Source: Chitinophagaceae bacterium
GTDB taxonomy: Bacteria; Bacteroidota; Bacteroidia; Chitinophagales; Chitinophagaceae
Direction of reading: 5' to 3'
Length of the DNA: 56,236 nucleotides
Assembly (NCBI GenBank): GCA_947447265.1
Contig: CANFKC010000033.1
Span: forward strand, 1 to 56,236
This document shows positions 311 to 53,315 of the stretch, in pieces. A model generated the notes under the pieces. That model worked only from the letters and a program-made list of their open reading frames with translations. It was not told where the DNA came from and made no database searches. Each line of letters opens with the position of its first letter. Within the stretch, counting starts at the first letter, position 1. A program made the translations under genes and the position numbers.

Positions 311-1081
311 ATGTTTTCGAGATTTTTCAGGAGAGGAAATAGTGAGCAGGAAAAAAGTGATGCCCTGGTTCCCAGTGATGCAGATTGGTCTTTTTTGGGC
401 GCTGACATACATTCTCATTTTGTGCCGGGTATTGATGATGGTGCTAAGACTATTGAGGATAGCCTTACACTGCTGCGCGCAATGGAAGCAATGGGATACA
501 AGAAAATTGTTACTACGCCCCACGTAATGAGCGATTTCTACCCGAACAATTCACAAAAAATACTTGCCGGTTTACAAACTATTCAAGATGCTGCCAGAGA
601 AAATAATATTAACCTGGAGATAAGCGCTGCCGCCGAATATTATATTGATGAAACCTTTACAGAGTTGATGGAGCGGGAGCCATTACTCACCATTACAAAA
701 AAACAGGTACTGGTAGAATTTTCAATGCTCTACGAGCCACCAATGCTAAATTCCGCCTTATTTAATATGCAGACCGCAGGCTATAAACCTATAATAGCCC
801 ACCCGGAACGATACATGTTCTTCCATAATAAGTTTGAACGTTATCGCGAACTACGGGACCGTGGTTGTTTGTTGCAATTGAATCTTCTCTCTATTTCCGG
901 TTATTATGGCCGCAATATAATGGAGGTTGCCCTGCGCCTTCTCGAAAAGGGAATGTATGATTATTGTGGCTCAGATATGCACCATGAAAAACATGCAGCG
1001 GCCCTTAAAGGCATGTTACACTCCAAAGCCTATAATACCCTGGCAAAATACCCGTTTTTGAATTCTCAGTTATGTTTGTAA
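311..1081 (+). CDS. CpsB/YwqE-family tyrosine-protein phosphatase (PHP fold)
   Basis: This is a metal-dependent protein-tyrosine phosphatase of the CpsB/CapC/YwqE type, which dephosphorylates the tyrosine-rich tail of the capsule autokinase. Visible motifs are the N-terminal DIHSHFVPGIDDG (His34 and His36, metal ligands), TPHVM near residue 70, HPERY near 160 and GSDMHH near 222, all typical of the polymerase-and-histidinol-phosphatase fold. Its length (256 residues) is normal for the family and it has no signal peptide, so it should be cytoplasmic. It is the first gene of the polysaccharide locus, two genes before the Wza/Wzc pair at 2594-5888, its likely substrate system. A short hairpin (293-298/306-311) touches the start codon and may affect initiation. 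Confidence 0.9.
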   Translation: MFSRFFRRGNSEQEKSDALVPSDADWSFLGADIHSHFVPGIDDGAKTIEDSLTLLRAMEAMGYKKIVTTPHVMSDFYPNNSQKILAGLQTIQDAARENNINLEISAAAEYYIDETFTELMEREPLLTITKKQVLVEFSMLYEPPMLNSALFNMQTAGYKPIIAHPERYMFFHNKFERYRELRDRGCLLQLNLLSISGYYGRNIMEVALRLLEKGMYDYCGSDMHHEKHAAALKGMLHSKAYNTLAKYPFLNSQLCL

Positions 1082-1086
1082 TTCCT

Positions 1087-1118
1087 TTTGCTTATAAAGC
1101 AGGGAAAGTATATTTTTG
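1087..1118 (+). promoter_or_regulatory. Bacteroidota-type promoter (TTTG-N20-TATTTTTG)
   Basis: A -33 element TTTG (1087-1090) lies 20 bases before a -7 element TATTTTTG (1111-1118), matching the Bacteroidota consensus TTTG-N19/20-TAnnTTTG. It lies in the gap after the phosphatase gene and would give the sugar dehydrogenase and the export genes their own transcript with a leader of about 60 bases. Confidence 0.55.
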
Positions 1119-1131
1119 CGTAAATATGCAG

Positions 1132-1154
1132 TACAGGTTTAATGTAAACCTGTA
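1132..1154 (+). promoter_or_regulatory. 10-bp perfect hairpin in the leader of the sugar dehydrogenase gene
   Basis: TACAGGTTTA (1132-1141) and TAAACCTGTA (1145-1154) form a perfect 10-bp stem with a 3-nt loop, followed by an A/T-rich run. It sits between the candidate promoter and the ATG at 1185. It may be an operator, an attenuator, or a weak terminator for the phosphatase gene; the sequence alone does not decide. Confidence 0.45.
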
Positions 1155-1184
1155 TTAAAAATTTTATATAAAAGATTGATATTG

Positions 1185-2480
1185 ATGGGAAATTCCTCTT
1201 TTAATATTGCCGTAATAGGGCTGGGATATGTTGGGTTGCCACTGGCAGTAGAATTTAGTAAATATTATCCCGTAATAGGTTTTGATATTAACAAAAAACG
1301 CATTGGCGAATTGCATGATTGCAATGATATTACGCTTGAGGTTGACTCATCTCTGCTGAAAGAAGTAACTATCCCTGAATCGGCAGTTGGCCAGAAAGGG
1401 CTGCACTGCAGCTACAATACCGATCACATAAAAGATTGCAATGTTTACATAATAACGGTGCCAACGCCCGTTGATAAAAACAACAGGCCCGACCTTACCC
1501 CGCTTTACAAAGCGAGCGAAACTGTGGGCAAAGTGTTGAAAAAAGGCGACTATGTTGTTTATGAGTCAACAGTTTACCCGGGTGTAACTGAAGACGAGTG
1601 CGTTCCGGTGCTGGAAAAATTCTCAGGATTAAAATTTAATGTCGATTTCTTCTGTGGCTACTCCCCTGAGCGGATAAACCCGGGCGATAAATTGCATACT
1701 GTTGCCAAAATTCTTAAAATAACCTCTGGTTCTACGCCTGAAACAGCTGAAATAATTGATAAGTTATACGGCTCAATTATCACAGCAGGCACCTTTAAAG
1801 CGGCAAGCATTAAAGTAGCAGAAGCGGCAAAGGTTATTGAAAACTCACAACGCGATATCAATATTGCCTTTGTAAATGAACTGGCAAAAATATTTAATAA
1901 ATTAGGCATTGATACGCATGACGTATTGGCCGCTGCGTCAACTAAATGGAACTTCCTTGGCTTTAAACCAGGCCTTGTTGGTGGCCATTGCATAGGCGTC
2001 GACCCTTACTACCTGGCACAAAAAGCGCAGGAAGCTGGCTACAACCCCGAAATCATTCTCGCAGGCAGGCGCCTTAACGATGGCATGGGCGCGTATATTG
2101 CCAACGAAGTAGTGAAATTAATGATAAGAAGGGACATACCAGTAAAAGGATCGAACATTCTGGTGCTGGGTATTACTTTTAAAGAGAATTGCACTGACGT
2201 CCGCAATACTAAAGTTGTAGATATAATAAGGGAACTGGAATCATACGGCGTAAACGTTACCGTATACGACCCTTGGGCCGAGCCTGCCGATGTTGCGCAC
2301 GAGTACAGTATTGTTACTACTACCGTACTCCCTGAAGGCAAAATTTTCGATTCAGTAATACTTGCAGTTGCGCATAAAGAATTTATGGATGTTAACTGGC
2401 AAAAACATGTAATAACCAATGGCGTTATTTATGATGTGAAAGGTTGCCTTGATACGCAGCTCATATCAGCCCGCTTATAA
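1185..2480 (+). CDS. Nucleotide sugar dehydrogenase (WbpA/TviB-type UDP-sugar 6-dehydrogenase)
   Basis: It oxidises C6 of a UDP-hexose or UDP-N-acetylhexosamine to the uronic acid in two NAD-dependent steps. The N-terminal Rossmann motif GLGYVGLPLA starts near residue 11, and the catalytic thiol motif GGHCIGVDPYYL places the active Cys at residue 269. The central helix and C-terminal UDP-binding domain (LGITFKENCTDVRNTK) are complete. The FxxGYSPERINPGD segment is typical of the WbpA/VipA branch that acts on UDP-GlcNAc or UDP-GalNAc rather than the UDP-glucose branch, but exact specificity is an inference. I chose the ATG at 1185 over an in-frame TTG at 1176. It could supply the uronic acid acceptor for the amide-forming cassette at 12364-16334. 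Confidence 0.9.
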   Translation: MGNSSFNIAVIGLGYVGLPLAVEFSKYYPVIGFDINKKRIGELHDCNDITLEVDSSLLKEVTIPESAVGQKGLHCSYNTDHIKDCNVYIITVPTPVDKNNRPDLTPLYKASETVGKVLKKGDYVVYESTVYPGVTEDECVPVLEKFSGLKFNVDFFCGYSPERINPGDKLHTVAKILKITSGSTPETAEIIDKLYGSIITAGTFKAASIKVAEAAKVIENSQRDINIAFVNELAKIFNKLGIDTHDVLAAASTKWNFLGFKPGLVGGHCIGVDPYYLAQKAQEAGYNPEIILAGRRLNDGMGAYIANEVVKLMIRRDIPVKGSNILVLGITFKENCTDVRNTKVVDIIRELESYGVNVTVYDPWAEPADVAHEYSIVTTTVLPEGKIFDSVILAVAHKEFMDVNWQKHVITNGVIYDVKGCLDTQLISARL

Positions 2481-2593
2481 ATATGGAATAAACGTTGCAT
2501 CCCTGCAGTTTCAGTATCAAATTGCAGATTTGTATTTTCCGTATTTTTAGTAGTTTATTTTAATTTATCCTAATTTTGTTCAAACGCAATCCG

Positions 2594-3391
2594 ATGCATA
2601 CATTTTCCAGACAAAGTTATCATGTTCTTTCTGTGGCTCTGGTCCTTGTCTTATCCTGGTCAATGACTTCATGCATTTCCGCAAAGAAGGTGGTATATTT
2701 TACTGATGTTCCTGACAGTAACTCAGTTAACAAGCCCTTCATAGTAGGGCCAACTGTAAAATATACCGATCCGGTAATTCTTACCAACGATCTGTTGGCA
2801 ATTACCGTGCAGACTGTTACGCAGGGCGAAAGTAATACACCTATTTCCTCTTCTACAGCCTCAATCTTCAACCCTCTTAACGGTTTCCTGGTTGATAAGA
2901 ACGGTAACATCGAAATTGCTCTTGTAGGCTTTGTGCATGTAGCCGGCCTCACCACGTCTGAAGCAAGGGAGTTAATAAAGGAAAAAGCGAAAGAATTCTA
3001 TAAAGATCCGGTAGTAAATCTTAGAATAGCTAATTTTGACATCCAGTTCATGGGTGAATTCAACCACCCGGGAACATTCACTTTCCCTGCTGAAAAAGTA
3101 AATATAGTTGAGGCTATTGCTGCAGCCGGCGACCTGGCTATTACGGCTAAAAGAAATAACATATTGCTGATTAGAAGTGAAGGTGACCAGAAAAAATTTG
3201 TGCGCTTTAGTATGAGCTCCTCAGACATCTTCAAATCAGAATACTTTTACATGAGGCAACGGGACATTTTGTATGCTACGCCTACCAGAAGCCGTATTCA
3301 GAATAGCGACAACACTATCCTGAGAAACGTCAGCGTTGTCTCTTCTCTGCTTGGTCTTGCTGGCCTCATTCTTGCTTTCAGACCTAAATAA
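2594..3391 (+). CDS. Wza-like polysaccharide export lipoprotein (OPX family)
   Basis: This is an outer-membrane polysaccharide export protein. A signal peptide ends in a lipobox (SMTSC, Cys27), so it is a lipoprotein. The Poly_export domain follows, with the pattern GFLVDKNGNIEIALVGFVHVAG near residue 95, then an SLBB-type segment (FMGEFNHPGTFTFPAE) and a hydrophobic C-terminal helix (VSSLLGLAGLILAF) expected to insert in the membrane. At 265 residues it is shorter than enterobacterial Wza, as is usual for Bacteroidota. I chose ATG 2594 because the upstream TTG at 2576 overlaps a -7-like TAATTTTG (2571-2578) and adds residues before the signal peptide. It lies 28 bases before the tyrosine kinase gene, its usual partner. 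Confidence 0.88.
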   Translation: MHTFSRQSYHVLSVALVLVLSWSMTSCISAKKVVYFTDVPDSNSVNKPFIVGPTVKYTDPVILTNDLLAITVQTVTQGESNTPISSSTASIFNPLNGFLVDKNGNIEIALVGFVHVAGLTTSEARELIKEKAKEFYKDPVVNLRIANFDIQFMGEFNHPGTFTFPAEKVNIVEAIAAAGDLAITAKRNNILLIRSEGDQKKFVRFSMSSSDIFKSEYFYMRQRDILYATPTRSRIQNSDNTILRNVSVVSSLLGLAGLILAFRPK

Positions 3392-3419
3392 TACTTTAAT
3401 TTTTTATACATTTATATAA

Positions 3420-5888
3420 ATGGAAGATAACAGACCTGAAATAGGTATTGAACGGAAGAAGGGTGAAGAGAGTGTTTTTAATTTAAAGTGGTTGCTTACT
3501 ACAGTAATGGCTATTTGGCCATGGTTACTGGCATGCATTATCATATCGCTCATTTTTGGTAATATCTACTTAAGGTACAGTACCCCTATTTACAAAACTG
3601 CTGCCGAGCTACTGATTAATGACTCGAAAAAAGGGGGATCGTCTGGACAGGAGGACATTATGGCTGCATTAAAAATCAGCAATAGCAAGATAAATGTTGA
3701 AAATGAGGAAGAAGTACTGAAAAGCAGAACCCTTATGACTGAAGTTATTAAGAGCCTCAACCTTCAGGTAAGTTACTCTATCAACGGCCGTTTAAAGAGA
3801 GCAAATCTGTACTCCGTAAAACCATTTGACTACTATATTACAGATACTGCCGATGGGACATATGGATGTACTGTAGATATCGTTAACGACAATGAGTACA
3901 TATTGAAAGAAATCCCTTATCCTCCATTACGCGGCAGGTTTGGTGATACTGTTTCAACCAAGCATGGTAAAATAGTACTCATAAAAACAAGGTACTTTAA
4001 CCCAAAACATCCGCAGGTAACCGTTAGGGTTGCACCAATCATAGCAACTGCAAAGAGGTTCATGGGTGTTACCGACATCAATGCAGCAAGTAAGGGTGCG
4101 AGTTGCCTATTCATTACAAGTGTAGATGACATTCCCGAGCGTTCGGTTGACATCCTCAACACTATCATGAAGATGTACAAAGAAAGGAACATCGCACAAA
4201 GAACGCTTATTGCTACCCGTACAATGGCCTTTATCGATGATCGTTTGGAAATTGTAGGAAAGCAGCTTACCGACGTTGAGACAAAAATGTCAGAATACAA
4301 GGTGGATAATAACATGGTAGATATGAGTTCGCAATCTACTGCGCTTGTTGCTGCAAGTTCTGCTACCCAGCAAAAACTTTCTGATGCAAAGTTACAGCTA
4401 GACGTTATTTCCAGTGTTCGTGATTACATACTTAGTGCTTCGGACAACAAGCCAATTATTATCCCCGCTTCTTTACTCGAAAATGGTGGCTTGCAATCGC
4501 TTACAGAAAAATATAACTCCGTACAAGCAGATATAGAGCATGCTGAAATTGCACAAACCAGAGACAACCCTGTTGTTAAGGCGCTTCTGAAACAAAAGAA
4601 AGACATAAAAGATAATATTCTCTACGCTCTTGCAGCAACTCAATCTGAAATGCAACTGAGGGTGAACAAGGCTAATGATGAACTGAACAACATTCAGAGC
4701 AGGGTACGCGACGTGCCAATGGTAGAAAGGCTTTACCTTGATTTTTCAAGGTTGCAGGCTACCAAGCAAGATCTGTATGTCTTCCTTCTAAAGAAGAGAG
4801 AAGAAACCGCTATCGAAAAATCATCAACAGTAGCCGATGCGATCATTGTAGATCCTGCCTTGTCTGATGCTTACCCTATTAAGCCGAACCACTCGCGTAT
4901 CTTAACCATGTCATTGCTTATTGGTGCTATTATCCCCTTTGCTGTTATCCTTATCCGCAGAGGCCTTAATATCAAAATCATCAGCAAAAGCGACATCATC
5001 AAAATCTCCAATATTCCTATCATCGGCGAAATTGGCAACAACGTTAGTGGTGAATCAATTGCAGTTGAAAAGAATAGCAGAACCCTGATATCAGAACAAT
5101 TCCGTGCACTTCGTACCAACCTGCAATACCTGCTTACTGATAAAGATAAGAAGGTGCTTATGGTTACCTCCAGTATGAGTAATGAAGGTAAATCTTTCAT
5201 TGCCGTTAACCTGGCTATTACGCTGGCCATGTCTGGTAAAAAGGTTGTACTTATGGAGTTTGACCTTCGTAAGCCAAGGGTGTCTAAGATGTTAGGTCTT
5301 GATAACACAAATGGTTTCTCTAACTACATTATAGGTAAGGCAAGCTACCACGATATTATTGTTCCATCAGGCTTTGAAGACAATCTTTACGTAGTGCCTT
5401 CAGGCCCTATACCGCCAAACCCGGCAGAACTTATTTTGCTGCAGGCCACGGAAGACTTCTACACCAGGCTGCGTGGAGACTTCGATTATATAGTTATCGA
5501 TACTTCGCCAATCGGTCTGGTTACCGATGCCCAGTTGCTTTATAAGTATACTGACATAGCCTTGTATATTGTAAGGCAGGGTCACACCCACAAGCAACAG
5601 CTTAACATTGCCAATGAACTTTTCGAATCAGGCAAAATGCCTAAGATTGGCTTCATTGTGAATGACGTTCTGGCCAACAGGGGTTATGCATATGGCTATG
5701 GCTACGAAGAAAACTATGGCTACGGCAACGGTTATGGCTATGGTTACGGATATGGCTACGGTTATGGCTATGGTTACGGCTCTTACGGAAGCGGATACTA
5801 TATTGACGATAATAAAAAAGGTTTTACCGGCCTGATAAACAGGAGAAAGAACAGGAACAAACCTAAAACAGATAATAATGATGACTAA
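3420..5888 (+). CDS. Wzc-like polysaccharide co-polymerase / bacterial tyrosine autokinase
   Basis: This inner-membrane protein spans the periplasm and couples polysaccharide assembly to export. An N-terminal membrane helix (about residues 29-55) starts the Wzz domain, then come a long coiled-coil periplasmic part, a GNVR-like segment (MVERLYLDFSRLQ) and a second membrane helix near 495-518. The cytoplasmic BY-kinase has Walker A SSMSNEGKS (Lys591), Walker A' LMEFDLRKPR and Walker B DYIVIDTSP (Asp689). The C-terminal autophosphorylation tail has 17 tyrosines in about 43 residues, mostly as Gly-Tyr dipeptides. The gene overlaps the permease start by 11 bases. The CpsB-type phosphatase at 311 should reverse its phosphorylation. 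Confidence 0.93.
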   Translation: MEDNRPEIGIERKKGEESVFNLKWLLTTVMAIWPWLLACIIISLIFGNIYLRYSTPIYKTAAELLINDSKKGGSSGQEDIMAALKISNSKINVENEEEVLKSRTLMTEVIKSLNLQVSYSINGRLKRANLYSVKPFDYYITDTADGTYGCTVDIVNDNEYILKEIPYPPLRGRFGDTVSTKHGKIVLIKTRYFNPKHPQVTVRVAPIIATAKRFMGVTDINAASKGASCLFITSVDDIPERSVDILNTIMKMYKERNIAQRTLIATRTMAFIDDRLEIVGKQLTDVETKMSEYKVDNNMVDMSSQSTALVAASSATQQKLSDAKLQLDVISSVRDYILSASDNKPIIIPASLLENGGLQSLTEKYNSVQADIEHAEIAQTRDNPVVKALLKQKKDIKDNILYALAATQSEMQLRVNKANDELNNIQSRVRDVPMVERLYLDFSRLQATKQDLYVFLLKKREETAIEKSSTVADAIIVDPALSDAYPIKPNHSRILTMSLLIGAIIPFAVILIRRGLNIKIISKSDIIKISNIPIIGEIGNNVSGESIAVEKNSRTLISEQFRALRTNLQYLLTDKDKKVLMVTSSMSNEGKSFIAVNLAITLAMSGKKVVLMEFDLRKPRVSKMLGLDNTNGFSNYIIGKASYHDIIVPSGFEDNLYVVPSGPIPPNPAELILLQATEDFYTRLRGDFDYIVIDTSPIGLVTDAQLLYKYTDIALYIVRQGHTHKQQLNIANELFESGKMPKIGFIVNDVLANRGYAYGYGYEENYGYGNGYGYGYGYGYGYGYGYGSYGSGYYIDDNKKGFTGLINRRKNRNKPKTDNNDD
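5730..5779 (+). repeat. Gly-Tyr coding hexanucleotide repeat with 20-nt direct repeats
   Basis: GGTTATGGCTATGGTTACGG occurs at 5730-5749 and again, identical, at 5760-5779, within a run of eight consecutive GGN-TAY codon pairs in the kinase tail. The arrangement could contract or expand in multiples of six bases without breaking the frame, changing the number of phosphorylatable tyrosines. Confidence 0.8.
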
Positions 5889-6759
5889 TGATGTGAGCGG
5901 TAGCTCTGCAGCGGCTTACAGTGAGCAATGGGATAGTATTATTGGTCCGCAAAAAGGTAAGTTCAGCCTTAACCTTAAAGAGGTATGGCGGTACAAGGAC
6001 CTGTTGATGCTCTTTGTGAAAAAAGACATTATTACAGTATACAAGCAAACTGTACTCGGGCCAATCTGGTTCCTGTTACAGCCTATAATGACAACGGTCA
6101 TCTTCACTTTCATTTTTGGTGGTGTTGCCAAGATACAGACGGATGATATTCCGAAAGGCATATTTTACATGGGTAGCTTAACTATGTGGAATTACTTTGC
6201 GGATACGCTTAATGTTACCTCTAAAACGTTTTCTGATAACGCAAGCGTGTTTGGTAAAGTGTATTTCCCTCGTATCATTTTGCCAATTTCAAAAGTACTG
6301 TCAGGTTTTGTAAAGCTGTGTATACAATTTAGCATCTTTATGGTTATGTGGGTGTATTACACTTTTGTAACACACCAGATTCACCCTAATATGACGCTAT
6401 TGCTGTTCCCGGTATTGCTGTTAACACTGTCTTTGCTCAGCCTTGGGTTTGGTATTATTGTAACGTCGCTCACCACCAAGTACCGCGATCTTGCTTTCCT
6501 TATTGGCTTTGGCGTGCAATTGTGGCAATATGCAACACCTATCATCTACCCACTTTCCGGACAATCTCCACGCACGCAATTTTGGTTACTCCTTAACCCG
6601 TTAACCTCAATTATTGAAGCCTTCAAGTATGGCTTTTTAGGTAAAGGTGTATTCAGCCCGGGTTGGTTATGCTATAGCATTGTGTTTACACTCGTAACAT
6701 TATTATCAGGTATTTTTGTTTTTAACAGGGTTGAGAAGAAATTTATTGATACTGTATAG
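5878..6759 (+). CDS. ABC-2 type polysaccharide export permease (Wzm/KpsM-like)
   Basis: This is the integral-membrane subunit of an ABC exporter for lipid-linked polysaccharide. An amphipathic N-terminal segment is followed by about six hydrophobic helices (for example IWFLLQPIMTTVIFTFIFGG and LLLFPVLLLTLSLLSLGFG). The conserved region with DLAFLIGFGVQLWQYATPIIYP is typical of ABC2_membrane O-antigen permeases. Its length (293) is slightly above the usual 260. The start overlaps the kinase stop by 11 bases and the ATPase gene follows after 16 bases, so the three are one transcription unit. Confidence 0.93.
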   Translation: MMTNDVSGSSAAAYSEQWDSIIGPQKGKFSLNLKEVWRYKDLLMLFVKKDIITVYKQTVLGPIWFLLQPIMTTVIFTFIFGGVAKIQTDDIPKGIFYMGSLTMWNYFADTLNVTSKTFSDNASVFGKVYFPRIILPISKVLSGFVKLCIQFSIFMVMWVYYTFVTHQIHPNMTLLLFPVLLLTLSLLSLGFGIIVTSLTTKYRDLAFLIGFGVQLWQYATPIIYPLSGQSPRTQFWLLLNPLTSIIEAFKYGFLGKGVFSPGWLCYSIVFTLVTLLSGIFVFNRVEKKFIDTV

Positions 6760-45047: not shown

Positions 45048-45644
45048 ATGCTTTTCTCTGATATTGATCTGAACAAAAACTATTCGTATGCCGACTATTA
45101 TAGCTGGCACTTTGAAGAGCGTGTTGAGTTGATTAACGGGAAAGTTTACAAAATGAGCCCTGCACCCAGCAGCTATCACCAGGATATTGTATTAGACATT
45201 GCAACATCGTTAAAGAACCACCTGCATGGTAAAAAATGCAAGGTGTATGTAGCTCCCTTCGATGTAAGGTTACCTAAAAAGGGAGTGGAAGACAAGAGCA
45301 TATTCACCGTACTTCAACCGGATGTATGTGTGATATGCGACCTTGAAAAAATAGACAAACGCGGCTGCATTGGTGCTCCCGATATTGTTGTTGAGGTGCT
45401 AAGCCCGGGCAATAACAACAAGGAACTCAAAAACAAATATGAAGCATATGAAGTAGCGGGCGTTCAGGAATATTGGATAGTAAGCCCTCAGATACAGTCT
45501 GTCACTTTATATGTATTGACTGATGGTAAATTCCAATCTTCCCGTATGCTATCTACCAGCGATATAGTCACTTCATCAGTCTTACCCGGCTTTTCGCTTG
45601 ATCTTTCTGAGCTATTTCAGGGGCTTGATGGAGAGGAGGAGTAA
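45048..45644 (+). CDS. Uma2-family restriction endonuclease-like protein (DUF820), second copy
   Basis: This 198-residue paralogue of the gene at 27182 shares YADYYSWHFEERVELINGK, APFDVRLPKKGV, LQPDVCVICDLEKIDKRGC and VEVLSPGNNNKELKNKYEAY. The PD-(D/E)XK core is in the same order. The two copies are more similar to each other than to the family average, pointing to within-lineage duplication. A -7-like TATTTTTG is at 45024-45031. Confidence 0.85.
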   Translation: MLFSDIDLNKNYSYADYYSWHFEERVELINGKVYKMSPAPSSYHQDIVLDIATSLKNHLHGKKCKVYVAPFDVRLPKKGVEDKSIFTVLQPDVCVICDLEKIDKRGCIGAPDIVVEVLSPGNNNKELKNKYEAYEVAGVQEYWIVSPQIQSVTLYVLTDGKFQSSRMLSTSDIVTSSVLPGFSLDLSELFQGLDGEEE

Positions 45645-45726
45645 AGAATCAACATGCTCTTAAAAGAGCAACACTTTTATATCTTACGTCCAGATTCCGG
45701 ATGGCGACCTTCACTCACCGGACATT

Positions 45727-45759
45727 TTTACTTTTTACTTTTAATTTTTTACTTTTTAC
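45727..45759. repeat. Low-complexity ACTTTTT repeats
   Basis: Several degenerate units related to TTTTTACTT run up to the start of the leucyl-tRNA synthetase gene. They are simple T/A-rich repeats; a role in expression cannot be seen. Confidence 0.4.
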
Positions 45760-48700
45760 ATGGAATACAATTTTTCGGAAATTGAAAAACGCTCCAAAGC
45801 ATATTGGAATGAAAATAAGGTTTACAAGGTAGAGAACCCTAAGGATGGGGCGGCACCGAAGCCAAAGTACTATGTGCTCGATATGTTCCCTTACCCAAGC
45901 GGGGCGGGCCTGCACGTTGGTCACCCACTCGGCTATATAGCTTCCGATATTTATGCACGCTATAAAAGGCTGTGCGGTTACAATGTGTTGCACCCAATGG
46001 GGTTCGATGAGTTCGGATTGCCTGCCGAGCAATATGCTATTGAAACTGGACAACACCCAGCCGATACCACTAAGAAAAACACAGCCCGGTATAAAGAACA
46101 GCTAAACAATATTGGCTTCAGTTTTGACTGGGACCGCGAAGTAGGCACCAGCAAGCCCGACTATTACAAATGGACGCAGTGGATCTTCCTGCAACTGTTT
46201 CATAGCTGGTATAACAATAGTGCCGGCAAAGCTCAGCCAATTGCAGAACTGGTTTCCATTTTCGAGAAAGAAGGGAATACCACCTATGCTTGCCCGGGCG
46301 ACGAAAGTGTGCAATTTGACGCTGCCACCTGGGCGGGTTATAATGAAAAAGAGAAGCGTAGTGTGCTCATGCAGTACCGCCTTGCCTACCAGGGTTATGC
46401 CCAGGTATGGTGGTGTGAAGCATTGGGAACCGTACTTGCCAATGATGAAGTAGTCAACGGCGTATCAGAGCGAGGTGGACACCCTGTAGAGCGCAAGAAT
46501 ATGCGCCAGTGGTTCCTGCGCATAACTGAATATGCCGACCGCCTCCTGGACAGCCTCGATAACCTGGACTGGAGCGAACCTATGAAAGAAATGCAGCGCA
46601 ACTGGATTGGAAAAAGTACTGGGGCAATCGTGCAATTTAGCCTCCCCCCAACCCCCTCCCATAGAGGGGGAGGTGATTCGCAAGCCCATGTTGGGCAAGA
46701 TAACAATACCAATTCTCCGTGGGAAACAACCAACCCTCAGTTGTATAAGCTGCTGAAAGAAAGGCAGCAGGAATTAAAAGATAACGAAACTGAAGCAGAA
46801 AAGATACTCTGGGCGAATCTAAGGGGCAATGCTCTTGGTGTTAAATTTAGAAGACAGCATATATTCGATCAGTTTATCGCTGATTTCATTTGTTTAAGCG
46901 AACAACTAATTGTAGAAGTAGATGGTAAAATTCACGATAAACGACAGGAACAAGATGCTGAACGCACTGCGCGAATTGAAGAACTTGGTTTTAGAGTAAT
47001 AAGGTTCACTAACGATCAGGTTATAGCGTCAATTGATTCTGTTCTAAACGAAATAAAAAAACACTTCAAATCACCTTCAGCAGGGGGTGCGCAAAGCACG
47101 CAACATAACACCTCCCCCTCTATGGGAGGGGGCCGGGGGGAGGCTGTAATGGTCTCCGTTTTCACCACTCGTCCCGACACCATATTCGGTGTTGACTTTA
47201 TGGTGGTTGCACCTGAGCATGAGCTGGTTGAAAAAATAACTACTCCTGAACAAAAATCTGCCATTGAGAGCTATGTGCAATATGTAAAAGGCCGTAGTGA
47301 ACGGGAAAGGCAGGCTGATGTAAAATCGGTTACCGGTTGCTTTACGGGTGCGTATGCTATTCATCCACTTAATAACAACCTTATCCCCATCTGGATATCG
47401 GAATATGTGCTGGCTGGCTATGGCACGGGCGCCATTATGGGGGTCCCTTCCGGTGACGAACGCGACCATCGTTTTGCGAAACATTTCAACATACCAATCA
47501 CCAATATTTTTGGCGATAAGTATACTGGCGAAGATGCGTATGCTGATAAAACCGGTACTATAGAAAATAGCGGCTTCATTAGTGGAATGAGCATTGCAGA
47601 TGCAGCCAATACCGTGATTGATACGTTAGAAAAACTAGACCAAGGCAGCAGGAAAGTAAATTACCGCTTACGCGACGCCGGCTTTAGCCGTCAACGCTAC
47701 TGGGGCGAACCGTTCCCGATAGTCTATATTGACGACGTGCCTTATGGCACAGATGAAGAGCCGGTTGCGAGCAACCCCGCTTTGAATAAACTGCCTGTAG
47801 AATTACCGATGGTAAAAACCTACAGCCCCGGTCCGGAAGGCCAGGGGCCACTGGCTAATATTGATACTTGGGTTGCTGACAACCGCGAGACTAACACCAT
47901 GCCCGGTTATGCTGGAAGTAGCTGGTATTTTCTGCGCTACATGGACCCGCACAACCAAAATGAATTTGCCAGCCGCAATGCAACCGATTACTGGAAGCAG
48001 GTTGACCTGTACGTTGGTGGTACAGAACATGCTGTAGGCCATCTGCTCTACTCCCGCATGTGGACAAAGGCTTTATGTGACTTAGGTCATATCAGTTTTG
48101 ACGAGCCATTTAAGAAGCTGCTGAACCAGGGGATGATTCAGGGGCAGAGCTATTTTATCAACGAGGTAATCGCATCAGAAGCTAGTGAAGATCCTGTGCA
48201 GAAGAACTTTTATTCGTCGTTAGGAAACGAAAGAAAACCAGGCGACAGCTTTGTACGTAATAATAAAACCTACACAGTGAAAGTTAAGATTCACAAAAGG
48301 ATTAATTATGGTCATTTGTTTGTCGATACAAAAGATAGGTTGACCTATGATAAATTTGGGGAGTATCTTAAATTCCAAAGAAGTCAACTTTCGGATATGT
48401 CTTTCGATGAAAATGATATTTCGGCTATACTAAAAACAAAAGTAGATTGGGACGGAACGACAGAAAATGGAGAACAATACATCCAGTGCAAATTGGAAGT
48501 AGAAAAAATGTCCAAATCGAAGTACAATGTTGTTAACCCAGATGACATTGTAACCCAGTATGGCGCAGATACTTTCAGGATGTACGAAATGTTCCTGGGG
48601 CCGATAGAAATGAGTAAGCCTTGGGATACCAAGGGTATTGAAGGGGTGCACCGCTTCTTGAAAAAACTTTGGCGCCTTTATGCTGATGAGCAAACTGGTT

Positions 48701-49200
48701 GGATAGTCACGGATGACGCACCTACTGATGCCGAACTGAAAGTGTTGCACAAAACCATCAAGAAAATAACAGAAGATATGGAGCGTTTCTCGTTCAATAC
48801 TTCTATCAGCCAGTTCATGATAACGGTTAATGAATTAACAACGCTTAACTGCCATAAACGCGCGATACTGGAGCCTCTGGTAGTGCTTATCTGTCCTTTT
48901 GCACCGCACCTGGCTGAAGAACTGTGGCATAAACTCGGCAAGAACGGTTTGCAACGAGATAGCGTGGTAACAGCAATTTTCCCGCAATTTGAAGAGAAGT
49001 ATGTTACCGAGAATACCAAGAACTACCCGGTAGCCGTTAACGGCAAACCAAGGGTGGAAATGGAGTTCGCATTAGATGCTGCACCTGCCGACATTGAAGC
49101 TGCGGTTATTGCCAACGAAATCATTCAGAAGTGGCTGGAAGGCAATGCACCAAAAAAGTTCATCTATGTGAAGGGGAAAATGATCAATGTGGTTATCTAA
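45760..49200 (+). CDS. leuS: Leucyl-tRNA synthetase carrying an in-frame DUF559 insertion
   Basis: LeuS charges tRNA-Leu and edits mischarged products. The HIGH motif is GAGLHVGHPLGY (residues near 48), KMSKS is in VEKMSKSKYNV, and the editing-domain signature VFTTRPDTIFG begins near residue 467. Residues 294-462 (169 codons) are foreign: a DUF559 (Vsr-like) nuclease-type domain between proline-glycine-rich ends. Without it the protein would be 977 residues, near the family's usual size. Insertion is at the entry of the editing domain, between GAIVQF and VMVSVFTTRPD, where a loop is expected. The stretch 48120-48480 is more A/T-rich than its surroundings and covers the variable Bacteroidota insert before KMSKS. 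Confidence 0.95.
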   Translation: MEYNFSEIEKRSKAYWNENKVYKVENPKDGAAPKPKYYVLDMFPYPSGAGLHVGHPLGYIASDIYARYKRLCGYNVLHPMGFDEFGLPAEQYAIETGQHPADTTKKNTARYKEQLNNIGFSFDWDREVGTSKPDYYKWTQWIFLQLFHSWYNNSAGKAQPIAELVSIFEKEGNTTYACPGDESVQFDAATWAGYNEKEKRSVLMQYRLAYQGYAQVWWCEALGTVLANDEVVNGVSERGGHPVERKNMRQWFLRITEYADRLLDSLDNLDWSEPMKEMQRNWIGKSTGAIVQFSLPPTPSHRGGGDSQAHVGQDNNTNSPWETTNPQLYKLLKERQQELKDNETEAEKILWANLRGNALGVKFRRQHIFDQFIADFICLSEQLIVEVDGKIHDKRQEQDAERTARIEELGFRVIRFTNDQVIASIDSVLNEIKKHFKSPSAGGAQSTQHNTSPSMGGGRGEAVMVSVFTTRPDTIFGVDFMVVAPEHELVEKITTPEQKSAIESYVQYVKGRSERERQADVKSVTGCFTGAYAIHPLNNNLIPIWISEYVLAGYGTGAIMGVPSGDERDHRFAKHFNIPITNIFGDKYTGEDAYADKTGTIENSGFISGMSIADAANTVIDTLEKLDQGSRKVNYRLRDAGFSRQRYWGEPFPIVYIDDVPYGTDEEPVASNPALNKLPVELPMVKTYSPGPEGQGPLANIDTWVADNRETNTMPGYAGSSWYFLRYMDPHNQNEFASRNATDYWKQVDLYVGGTEHAVGHLLYSRMWTKALCDLGHISFDEPFKKLLNQGMIQGQSYFINEVIASEASEDPVQKNFYSSLGNERKPGDSFVRNNKTYTVKVKIHKRINYGHLFVDTKDRLTYDKFGEYLKFQRSQLSDMSFDENDISAILKTKVDWDGTTENGEQYIQCKLEVEKMSKSKYNVVNPDDIVTQYGADTFRMYEMFLGPIEMSKPWDTKGIEGVHRFLKKLWRLYADEQTGWIVTDDAPTDAELKVLHKTIKKITEDMERFSFNTSISQFMITVNELTTLNCHKRAILEPLVVLICPFAPHLAEELWHKLGKNGLQRDSVVTAIFPQFEEKYVTENTKNYPVAVNGKPRVEMEFALDAAPADIEAAVIANEIIQKWLEGNAPKKFIYVKGKMINVVI
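46639..47145 (+). mobile_element. 507-bp in-frame element with 37-bp inverted repeats and a DUF559 domain
   Basis: The ends, 46639-46675 and 47109-47145, are inverted copies of each other with two mismatches in 37 bases; both are very C/G-biased and each also folds as an imperfect hairpin. Its length is exactly 169 codons and it keeps the leuS frame. The encoded middle part (about residues 328-436) has ETEAEKILWANLRGNALGVKF, FIADFICLSEQLIVEVDGKIHD and RIEELGFRVIRF, matching the DUF559 endonuclease fold. No target-site duplication is evident. I see no intein splice residues. Confidence 0.85.
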
Positions 49201-49280
49201 ACCGCTGATTACGCTGACTATTCCGATTCACTCTGATTGCTTCTTTAAAATACCTCAATAAATACTTAACGAGTTACACA

Positions 49281-49317
49281 AAATACACGGATGGTCATTC
49301 ATCCGTGTATTTTTTTG
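49281..49317 (+). terminator. Rho-independent terminator of leuS
   Basis: A perfect 13-bp stem (AAATACACGGATG with its complement), a 6-nt loop and seven T. It lies 80 bases past the stop codon. Confidence 0.88.
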
Positions 49318-52769: not shown

Positions 52770-53315
52770 ATGGACGCAAAATCCAAATATGACTCCAATA
52801 TTCACCACCGTCGCTCTATTCGCTTAAAAGGATTTGACTACAGCCTGGGTGGTTTGTACTTTATAACTATTTGCTGCCATCAAATGGAATGCCGATTCGG
52901 CAGAGTTGAAAATGAAGCCATGGTATTGAATGATGCGGGACAAATTGCTTACGATGAATGGATAAAGTTACCGGCCCACTTTTCCAATATGGAATTAGAT
53001 GTTTTTCAGATAATGCCAAATCATATGCACGGCATCATTGCATTGACTAGTACAATAGGGCAACCGCAAGGGATTGCCCCTACGATCGGTGACATTGTAG
53101 GAGCATACAAATCTTTAGTTGTAACTGCCTGTCTTGACGAGTTTAAACAAAAGGACAAGAGTCTAGTACCAAACAATCATCCACAACTGGGTAAAATCTG
53201 GCAAAGAAATTATCATGAGCATATCATTCGTAATGAGGAATCCTACAAGACGATTTCAGCATACATCATAAATAACCCAGCAAATTGGATCGCAGATAAA
53301 TTCTATAAATCGTAA
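52770..53315 (+). CDS. REP-associated tyrosine transposase (RAYT, Y1_Tnp)
   Basis: This is a single-strand DNA transposase-like protein of the IS200/IS605 superfamily, 181 residues. The HUH pair is in MPNHMHGII (His85 and His87) and the catalytic Tyr148 is in WQRNYHEHIIRNEESY. RAYTs act on REP sequences at their flanks, and copies lie on both sides of this gene. An inverted copy lies inside the frame at 53057-53083 and is translated as QPQGIAPTIG (residues about 97-106). No frameshift is seen, so the protein may be active. Confidence 0.9.
   Translation: MDAKSKYDSNIHHRRSIRLKGFDYSLGGLYFITICCHQMECRFGRVENEAMVLNDAGQIAYDEWIKLPAHFSNMELDVFQIMPNHMHGIIALTSTIGQPQGIAPTIGDIVGAYKSLVVTACLDEFKQKDKSLVPNNHPQLGKIWQRNYHEHIIRNEESYKTISAYIINNPANWIADKFYKS
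53057..53083 (-). repeat. REP copy inside the transposase gene, inverted
   Basis: This 27-nt stretch is the exact reverse complement of the downstream REP at 53318-53344; identity extends to 30 bases (53057-53086 against 53315-53344). Confidence 0.9.

Follow-up and report, generated by a model that had tools for sequence, protein, structure and literature searches.

Selfish nucleases that reside within genes are usually thought to require splicing if the host is to be spared. The leucyl-tRNA synthetase gene described here carries a nuclease domain in frame, and raises the question of how such a sequence entered an essential enzyme and how the enzyme accommodates it. The gene lies in a window of 56,236 nucleotides (the whole stretch of DNA analysed), in which the following features are relevant.

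45760..49200, + strand: leuS, the leucyl-tRNA synthetase host gene, 1146 aa (TIGR00396, E 3.4e-269)
46639..47145, + strand: in-frame element of 169 codons, consisting of a hairpin end, a DUF559 nuclease and an inverted hairpin end; absent from seven genus relatives
46639..46675, + strand: left hairpin end, REP-like, translated as SLPPTPSHRGGG (folding z -1.84)
46756..47064, + strand: DUF559 nuclease domain, Vsr/EDxHD-like fold (DUF559 E 2.7e-33; residues conserved over 201 copies)
47109..47145, - strand: right hairpin end, an inverted copy of the left; + strand translation TSPSMGGGRGEA (folding z -0.69)

A first-pass annotation had proposed a leuS insert of 507 bp, exactly 169 codons, that preserves the reading frame. 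This was borne out by the coordinates (46639-47145) and by the leuS frame, which is open throughout (45760-49200). The inverted ends, described there as near-perfect over 37 bp, are indeed 37 nt each and 95% complementary, and the two end peptides, read from the leuS frame, are the translated repeats as claimed. The ends of this copy fold just modestly better than shuffled sequences, as the z values above indicate, and this counts against the hairpin-based explanation developed below. Pfam DUF559 (PF04480) matched the whole leuS protein at E 3.1e-32 and the insert alone at E 1.6e-33. No second leuS was found in the source genome, which is 98.8% complete; the two other matches to the leuS query were short and weak (32% and 29% identity). 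The model of the whole LeuRS is weak (mean pLDDT 66.9) and was used solely for order and disorder in the insert region, where it predicts an ordered stretch at about residues 326-434 with disordered linkers, 298-320 and 438-462, on either side.

We then considered the nuclease itself, which had been annotated as a Vsr-like DUF559 domain. The assignment to DUF559 stands, with the correction that the nearest fold is that of an EDxHD homing endonuclease. The model of the insert (mean pLDDT 81) gave its best fold matches to 3hrl, a DUF559 protein (2.2e-7), and I-Bth0305I (2.5e-4), and a profile match to 3r3p (I-Bth0305I) was obtained at 2.7e-6; the single-sequence match to I-Bth0305I was not significant (E 0.13). 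To judge from the model, the domain combines a nuclease fold with the conserved acidic residues and histidine of an EDxHD/Vsr-like enzyme. Over 201 distinct cores, the active-site positions are occupied by E in 201, D in 200, E in 200, D in 200 and H in 200; in the 150 embedded cores the corresponding counts are 150, 150, 149, 150 and 149. These nearly invariant residues are presumably catalytic, a role that we assign from the fold family. Among 52 close pairs of embedded copies, the 27 with a finite dS gave a median dN/dS of 0.095 and a maximum of 0.24, values that are rough because many dS estimates exceed 1 or are infinite; a dN/dS of ∼0.1 nevertheless suggests that purifying selection acts on the nuclease. 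A methionine occurs no more than 45 aa upstream of the core in 48/51 free copies, in all 19 amino-end fusions and in 53/131 internal copies; the insert in the window has none within this distance. No separate DNA-binding module was seen in the window insert, which is short, and this counts against a reading in terms of homing.

The annotation had suggested looking for the same unit in other genes, and it was found in many. DUF559 matches are present in 60/117 family genomes (E ≤ 1e-3) and in 102/247 of the phylum (E ≤ 1e-15), and matches to a profile of the insert in 147/348 genomes of the order. A scan of named genomes confirmed at least 556 relatives; of the 80 loci retained from these, 50 lie in an open frame of ≥270 aa, our definition of 'embedded', a less selected figure, yet one shaped by the leuS-derived query and by the limits set on the number of matches and of loci. 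The proportion of distinct nuclease cores in such frames, 150/201, is not a frequency, since fetching favoured long frames and copies in short frames were added separately; among the fetched copies, 102 inserts are distributed over 101 open frames of ≥270 aa, and a further 21 copies are in shorter frames. Distant relatives were detected in 3/50,697 phage records and 38/72,556 plasmid records. At three plasmid places that were inspected, the relative is a separately annotated gene in two, and the third record carries no gene annotation.

Some 26 host genes could be named from representatives with NCBIfam and Pfam: leuS, metG, ileS, metH, cinA, icmF, argB, aroC, mnmE, ade, hisA, acsA, uvrA, trpA, murE, murU, ispG, dnaE, thrB, hsdR, uvrC and priA, together with genes for an M23-type protein, a ligase-associated helicase, an arsenosugar-associated peroxidase-like protein and a class II synthetase-like protein. 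Some of these family matches fall below the curated cut-off (for example, MurU in locus L266 and the M23-type protein in L118), and one locus, L253, carries a copy whose host gene is ambiguous. The host labels used in the comparisons below come from flank motifs of our own choosing, which left 13 of 205 cores unlabelled and one merely a probable leuS. In argB, hisA, thrB, trpA, murU and hisF (the last by motif only) the nuclease is fused at the amino end, and these hosts may be translated separately from DUF559. The in-frame fusion ahead of HisF, again named by motif only, was seen at eleven loci (L286, L287, L297, L304, L308, L315, L319, L321, L324, L331 and L339), ten of which are titled Pedobacter or Mucilaginibacter.

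What these copies share at their ends was examined in 192 of the 205 copies, the other 13 having flanks that were short or rich in N. The median score of one end against the other within a copy was 17.5 for 146 embedded copies and 17.75 for 46 free copies, compared with 9 when ends of different copies were paired and 8 in shuffled DNA. Taking the 99% level of shuffled DNA as the threshold, the two ends of a copy match in 102/146 embedded and 35/46 free copies, and cross-copy pairs do so in 29/192; lineage adds to this contrast, because the cross-copy pairs join different lineages. The commonest end consists of CCTCACCCC, a short spacer (n) and then a CCCCTCTCC-loop-GGAGAGGGG hairpin. Among copies that have the CCCTCTCC-type hairpin, all three reading frames are used for it (37/16/8 on the left and 22/11/29 on the right), which points to the DNA, rather than the peptide, as the thing conserved.

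The annotation had tied the repeats to the boundaries of the insertion, and where ends are recognizable they do mark sharp boundaries. A simple motif fits the ends of 53 copies; among these, the first base outside the ends is complementary in 42 (17.6 expected) and the second in 27 (14.2 expected); further out, complementarity is near background. Direct flank matches of 3-6 bases, the target-site duplication typical of a DDE-type insertion sequence, were found in at most 2 of these 53 copies.

We next asked where leuS is filled and where it is empty. Site 1, the position of the window insert between the motifs NWIGKS and TTRPDT, could be read in seven genus relatives (G001 and G003-G008); all have just a short loop there, so the insert is not a universal feature of leuS in the lineage. 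This short loop is variable, which prevents the insertion point from being placed with single-base precision. In one relative (G003, locus L079), the loop holds a different perfect palindrome, with a 9-bp stem, where the window has its element. Over 76 distinct site 1 loops, 38 hold DUF559, 36 are empty, one has another insert and one another hairpin. A second site lies directly before the TMPGYAG motif; full elements occupy it in G001 and G003, none was found there in G000, G005, G006 or G008, and in G004 we read the sequence as a degenerate hairpin-like stretch. The cultured Ilyomonas limi 17mud1-8 (L269) is also a carrier at site 2. The 65 distinct site 2 loops comprise 15 with DUF559, 47 empty and three with a hairpin only. 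The counts at both sites are affected by the choice of fetched leuS loci, made partly for the inserts that they carry. The solo hairpins at site 2 are in G007, G077 and L301; since chance hairpins arise in 3/50 shuffled loops, what supports these three cases is the family sequence and the position, rather than the hairpin form alone. At three loci (L082, L268 and L272, the last cut by a contig end) both sites carry an element. The other insert at site 1, in L077 (G058), is an in-frame sequence with a PBECR3 nuclease (PF18812, E 1.6e-18), not DUF559, and a hairpin scan of it found no hairpin.

The leuS insert is the sole strong DUF559 copy in the source genome, the second match being weak (E 8.8e-6). 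No recent jump is therefore visible within this genome, which counts against a mobile element, and mobility has to be read by comparison between genomes. On a FastTree phylogeny of the 201 cores, host mixing was read from label changes and leaf order. The labels of host sites seen at least twice change 44 times over 174 cores (minimum 16; shuffles 101-118), and 35 times over 123 cores when free copies are removed (minimum 15; shuffles 72-82). Sites thus keep lineages, but the leuS site 1, leuS site 2 and aroC copies interleave, as do those of cinA and ade. For leuS site 1, the similarity of the inserts correlates poorly with that of their hosts (Spearman 0.11) and nearest neighbours agree in 12/41 cases; a correlation this high arose in only 20 of 500 permutations, as it would if inserts were in part simply inherited, which counts against repeated movement. 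The correlation is 0.38 at leuS site 2 and reaches 0.71 for hisF, 0.72 for ileS and 0.70 for metH, so that in these last three genes the inserts partly follow their hosts, and this too counts against it. Taken together, the tree labels and the agreement of hosts with inserts indicate that inserts have been passed on with their hosts and have also been gained or exchanged repeatedly.

Hairpins of this family also occur alone. With up to three mismatches, the core palindrome is found at 13 places in the source genome, two of which are the ends of the insert, and a reversed control gave none. Two clusters (C24:12165-12358 and C6:71328-71672) have neighbouring palindromes mostly 73-87 bp apart, and at C2:94424-94441 (L036) a solo palindrome is read in frame, as SPGPSHRG, within the final quarter of a frame of 441 aa. 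In one relative, G007, 14 of 20 hairpin copies examined (23 in total) lie outside frames of ≥120 aa. The canonical hairpin is present in 39/117 family genomes and 41/247 phylum genomes, with none for the reversed control in either set, and its presence is associated with a strong DUF559 match in both (32/7/17/61, p 4e-10, in the family; 31/10/71/135, p 1.4e-6, in the phylum), in tests that treat genomes as independent and on sets that share a few genomes. A strict removal of genomes whose hairpins are, or might be, only element ends weakens the link (p 4.3e-6 and 9.5e-4 respectively). Against it, 7 of the 39 hairpin genomes in the family lack a strong DUF559 match, and G072 has 23 hairpins and no DUF559 match.

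We think it probable that the leuS insert is a mobile element, composed of a REP-like hairpin, a DUF559 nuclease and an inverted hairpin, that is kept in the enzyme and has spread by homing-like copying. The original observation in leuS is thus confirmed. Its interpretation as a selfish nuclease element distinct from inteins and group I introns is supported, with the difference that the element extends beyond leuS and beyond Bacteroidota. Comparison of sequences makes in-frame insertion and repeated gain well supported; in the same way it supports the anatomy of the unit, its many hosts, its patchy gain at the same sites, its sharp ends, the selection on its nuclease and the solo hairpins at one of these sites. 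The REP-like hairpin family to which the ends belong also has solitary members. The element would sit in a loop of LeuRS, translated and retained as part of the enzyme, and its hairpins would be read as linkers rich in Pro, Gly and Ser that allow the nuclease to fold as a separate domain. The nuclease would then nick or cut either an allele that lacks the element or a solo hairpin already in place, with repair copying the element in; the distribution of the element fits such homing. We infer the cutting of DNA, the copying by repair and the retention in the mature protein. Landing on resident hairpins is the most interesting form of this homing-like copying, and its main rival is transposition of the hairpin.

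In that rival, the DUF559 nuclease is specific for hairpins and carries both them and itself to new locations, rather than homing into cognate alleles. The solo hairpins, the association of hairpins with DUF559, the many different hosts and the likeness of the ends within each copy all fit such a transposition. We nevertheless regard it as rather unlikely, because distant genera carry the element in the same loops and sites keep lineages on the tree, for which homing or landing on resident hairpins is better suited. A Y1 transposase of the RAYT type might instead move the hairpins in trans, as for classical REPs, with DUF559 a passenger between two of them. The layout of hairpin, gene and hairpin is similar to that of REP-RAYT units, the source genome has five strong Y1_Tnp matches, and the absence of a target duplication suits Y1 enzymes. 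However, over the 117 family genomes the hairpin is not significantly associated with Y1_Tnp (p 0.17 for any match, 0.11 for a strong match), its link to DUF559 persists in genomes that lack a strong Y1 match (9/4/9/30, p 0.005), and the strong selection on the nuclease speaks against a passenger. A RAYT origin was rejected on the weaker association, and we hold the passenger role to be quite unlikely. In the window itself, a weak Y1_Tnp match lies at 52911-53276 (E 7.1e-4).

That DUF559 has been domesticated, and serves the host enzyme in repair, defence or regulation, is in keeping with purifying selection and with the partial inheritance alongside the host at hisF, ileS and metH. We judge it very improbable: the insert is absent from the genus relatives, its hosts share no common function, and host and insert agree poorly at leuS site 1. 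Removal of the insert by splicing, as RNA or as protein, is favoured by its place in an essential enzyme and by a DUF559 copy that is contained in a true intein, in dnaE of locus L261 (frame 495-6279, minus strand; residues 931-1443), where it occupies the homing-endonuclease position between the splicing parts and has hairpin-like end peptides. In the window, an Rfam search for group I or II introns over 45700-49300 gave no match up to E 1. As the annotation had noted, intein splice residues are absent: the insert ends in GEA, and a Pfam scan of the protein to E 0.1 returned tRNA-synthetase domains, DUF559 and a sub-threshold relative of DUF559 only, with no splicing domain. The flanks, moreover, are hairpin peptides that are read in different frames. 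Splicing was rejected on this Pfam and Rfam evidence, and we consider it extremely improbable.

The mobile element that we favour resembles several known systems in part. Inteins likewise place a nuclease in frame in conserved genes with a patchy distribution, but the window protein has hairpin ends in place of a splicing domain. REP-RAYT units (REPtrons) share a gene between inverted hairpins and solo hairpins elsewhere in the genome, whereas here DUF559, not a Y1 transposase, lies between the ends, and full units occur in frame inside genes. Rickettsia palindromic elements (RPEs) and intragenic REPs are described as palindromes that lie in frame within housekeeping genes unrelated to one another, their translation into peptide apparently being tolerated; the passages concerned give RPEs as ∼150 bp coding for a conserved peptide, mention no nuclease, and state that CGTC-type REPs are without a dedicated transposase (PMC10969869, PMC3733652). 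The in-frame palindromes in coding genes are matched here by the solo hairpins at leuS site 2 and in the 441-aa frame; in this comparison of descriptions, the nuclease appears as the feature of the present unit. One DUF559 gene appears in a published account as already assigned to EDxHD (PMC9403480). After a DUF559 protein, the nearest solved fold predicted for the insert is that of the EDxHD homing endonuclease I-Bth0305I, whose PDB entry names it a mobile intron protein. The part of the literature that bears on it describes I-Bth0305I as multi-domain, with a target of nearly 60 bp, and phage-type EDxHD enzymes as having a separate DNA-binding module (PMC3943268); for the leuS insert, by comparison, there is no intron, and we saw no additional DNA-binding domain. 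A mitochondrial cox2 insert with a putative nuclease is also reported to lie in frame in an essential gene, with cox2 expressed as two products according to the relevant passage (PMC5374615); the present unit differs from that description in its single long frame, its many hosts and its hairpin ends. In the open PubMed Central full text, outside which subscription journals mostly fall, DUF559 appears in 14 papers, and we found none that joins it with leucyl-tRNA synthetase.

The unit might therefore represent a separate class of mobile element, in which a nuclease between REP-like hairpins resides inside essential proteins without splicing, has its peptide linkers supplied by its own ends and homes into resident solo hairpins, and which also supplies the missing partner enzyme of the REP-like family; we offer this tentatively, as a possibility that falls somewhat short of likely. 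It seems to spare its host without splicing, since the DNA of its ends serves at the same time to encode protein linkers, and it is found in more than 20 kinds of conserved genes. DUF559 becomes a candidate enzyme for a common hairpin repeat, and the tolerance of essential enzymes for insertion of a whole domain becomes directly testable. There is also a caution for annotation, in that many synthetases and metabolic enzymes carry an intact-looking nuclease.

Three further observations concern leuS and its neighbourhood. At locus L148 (G059), the DUF559 core in leuS lies between direct repeats of ∼40 aa, each resembling a hairpin pair, possibly a trace of the entry of the nuclease into a hairpin pair. 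Upstream of leuS in the window, the open reading frame at 45048-45644 looks like a Uma2-type PD-(D/E)XK protein, which we presume it to be. Finally, two contigs of G022 (C262 and C265; loci L080 and L081) carry different 5' parts of leuS, each with its own site 1 element, reflecting either two copies of the gene or a mixture of strains in this draft genome.
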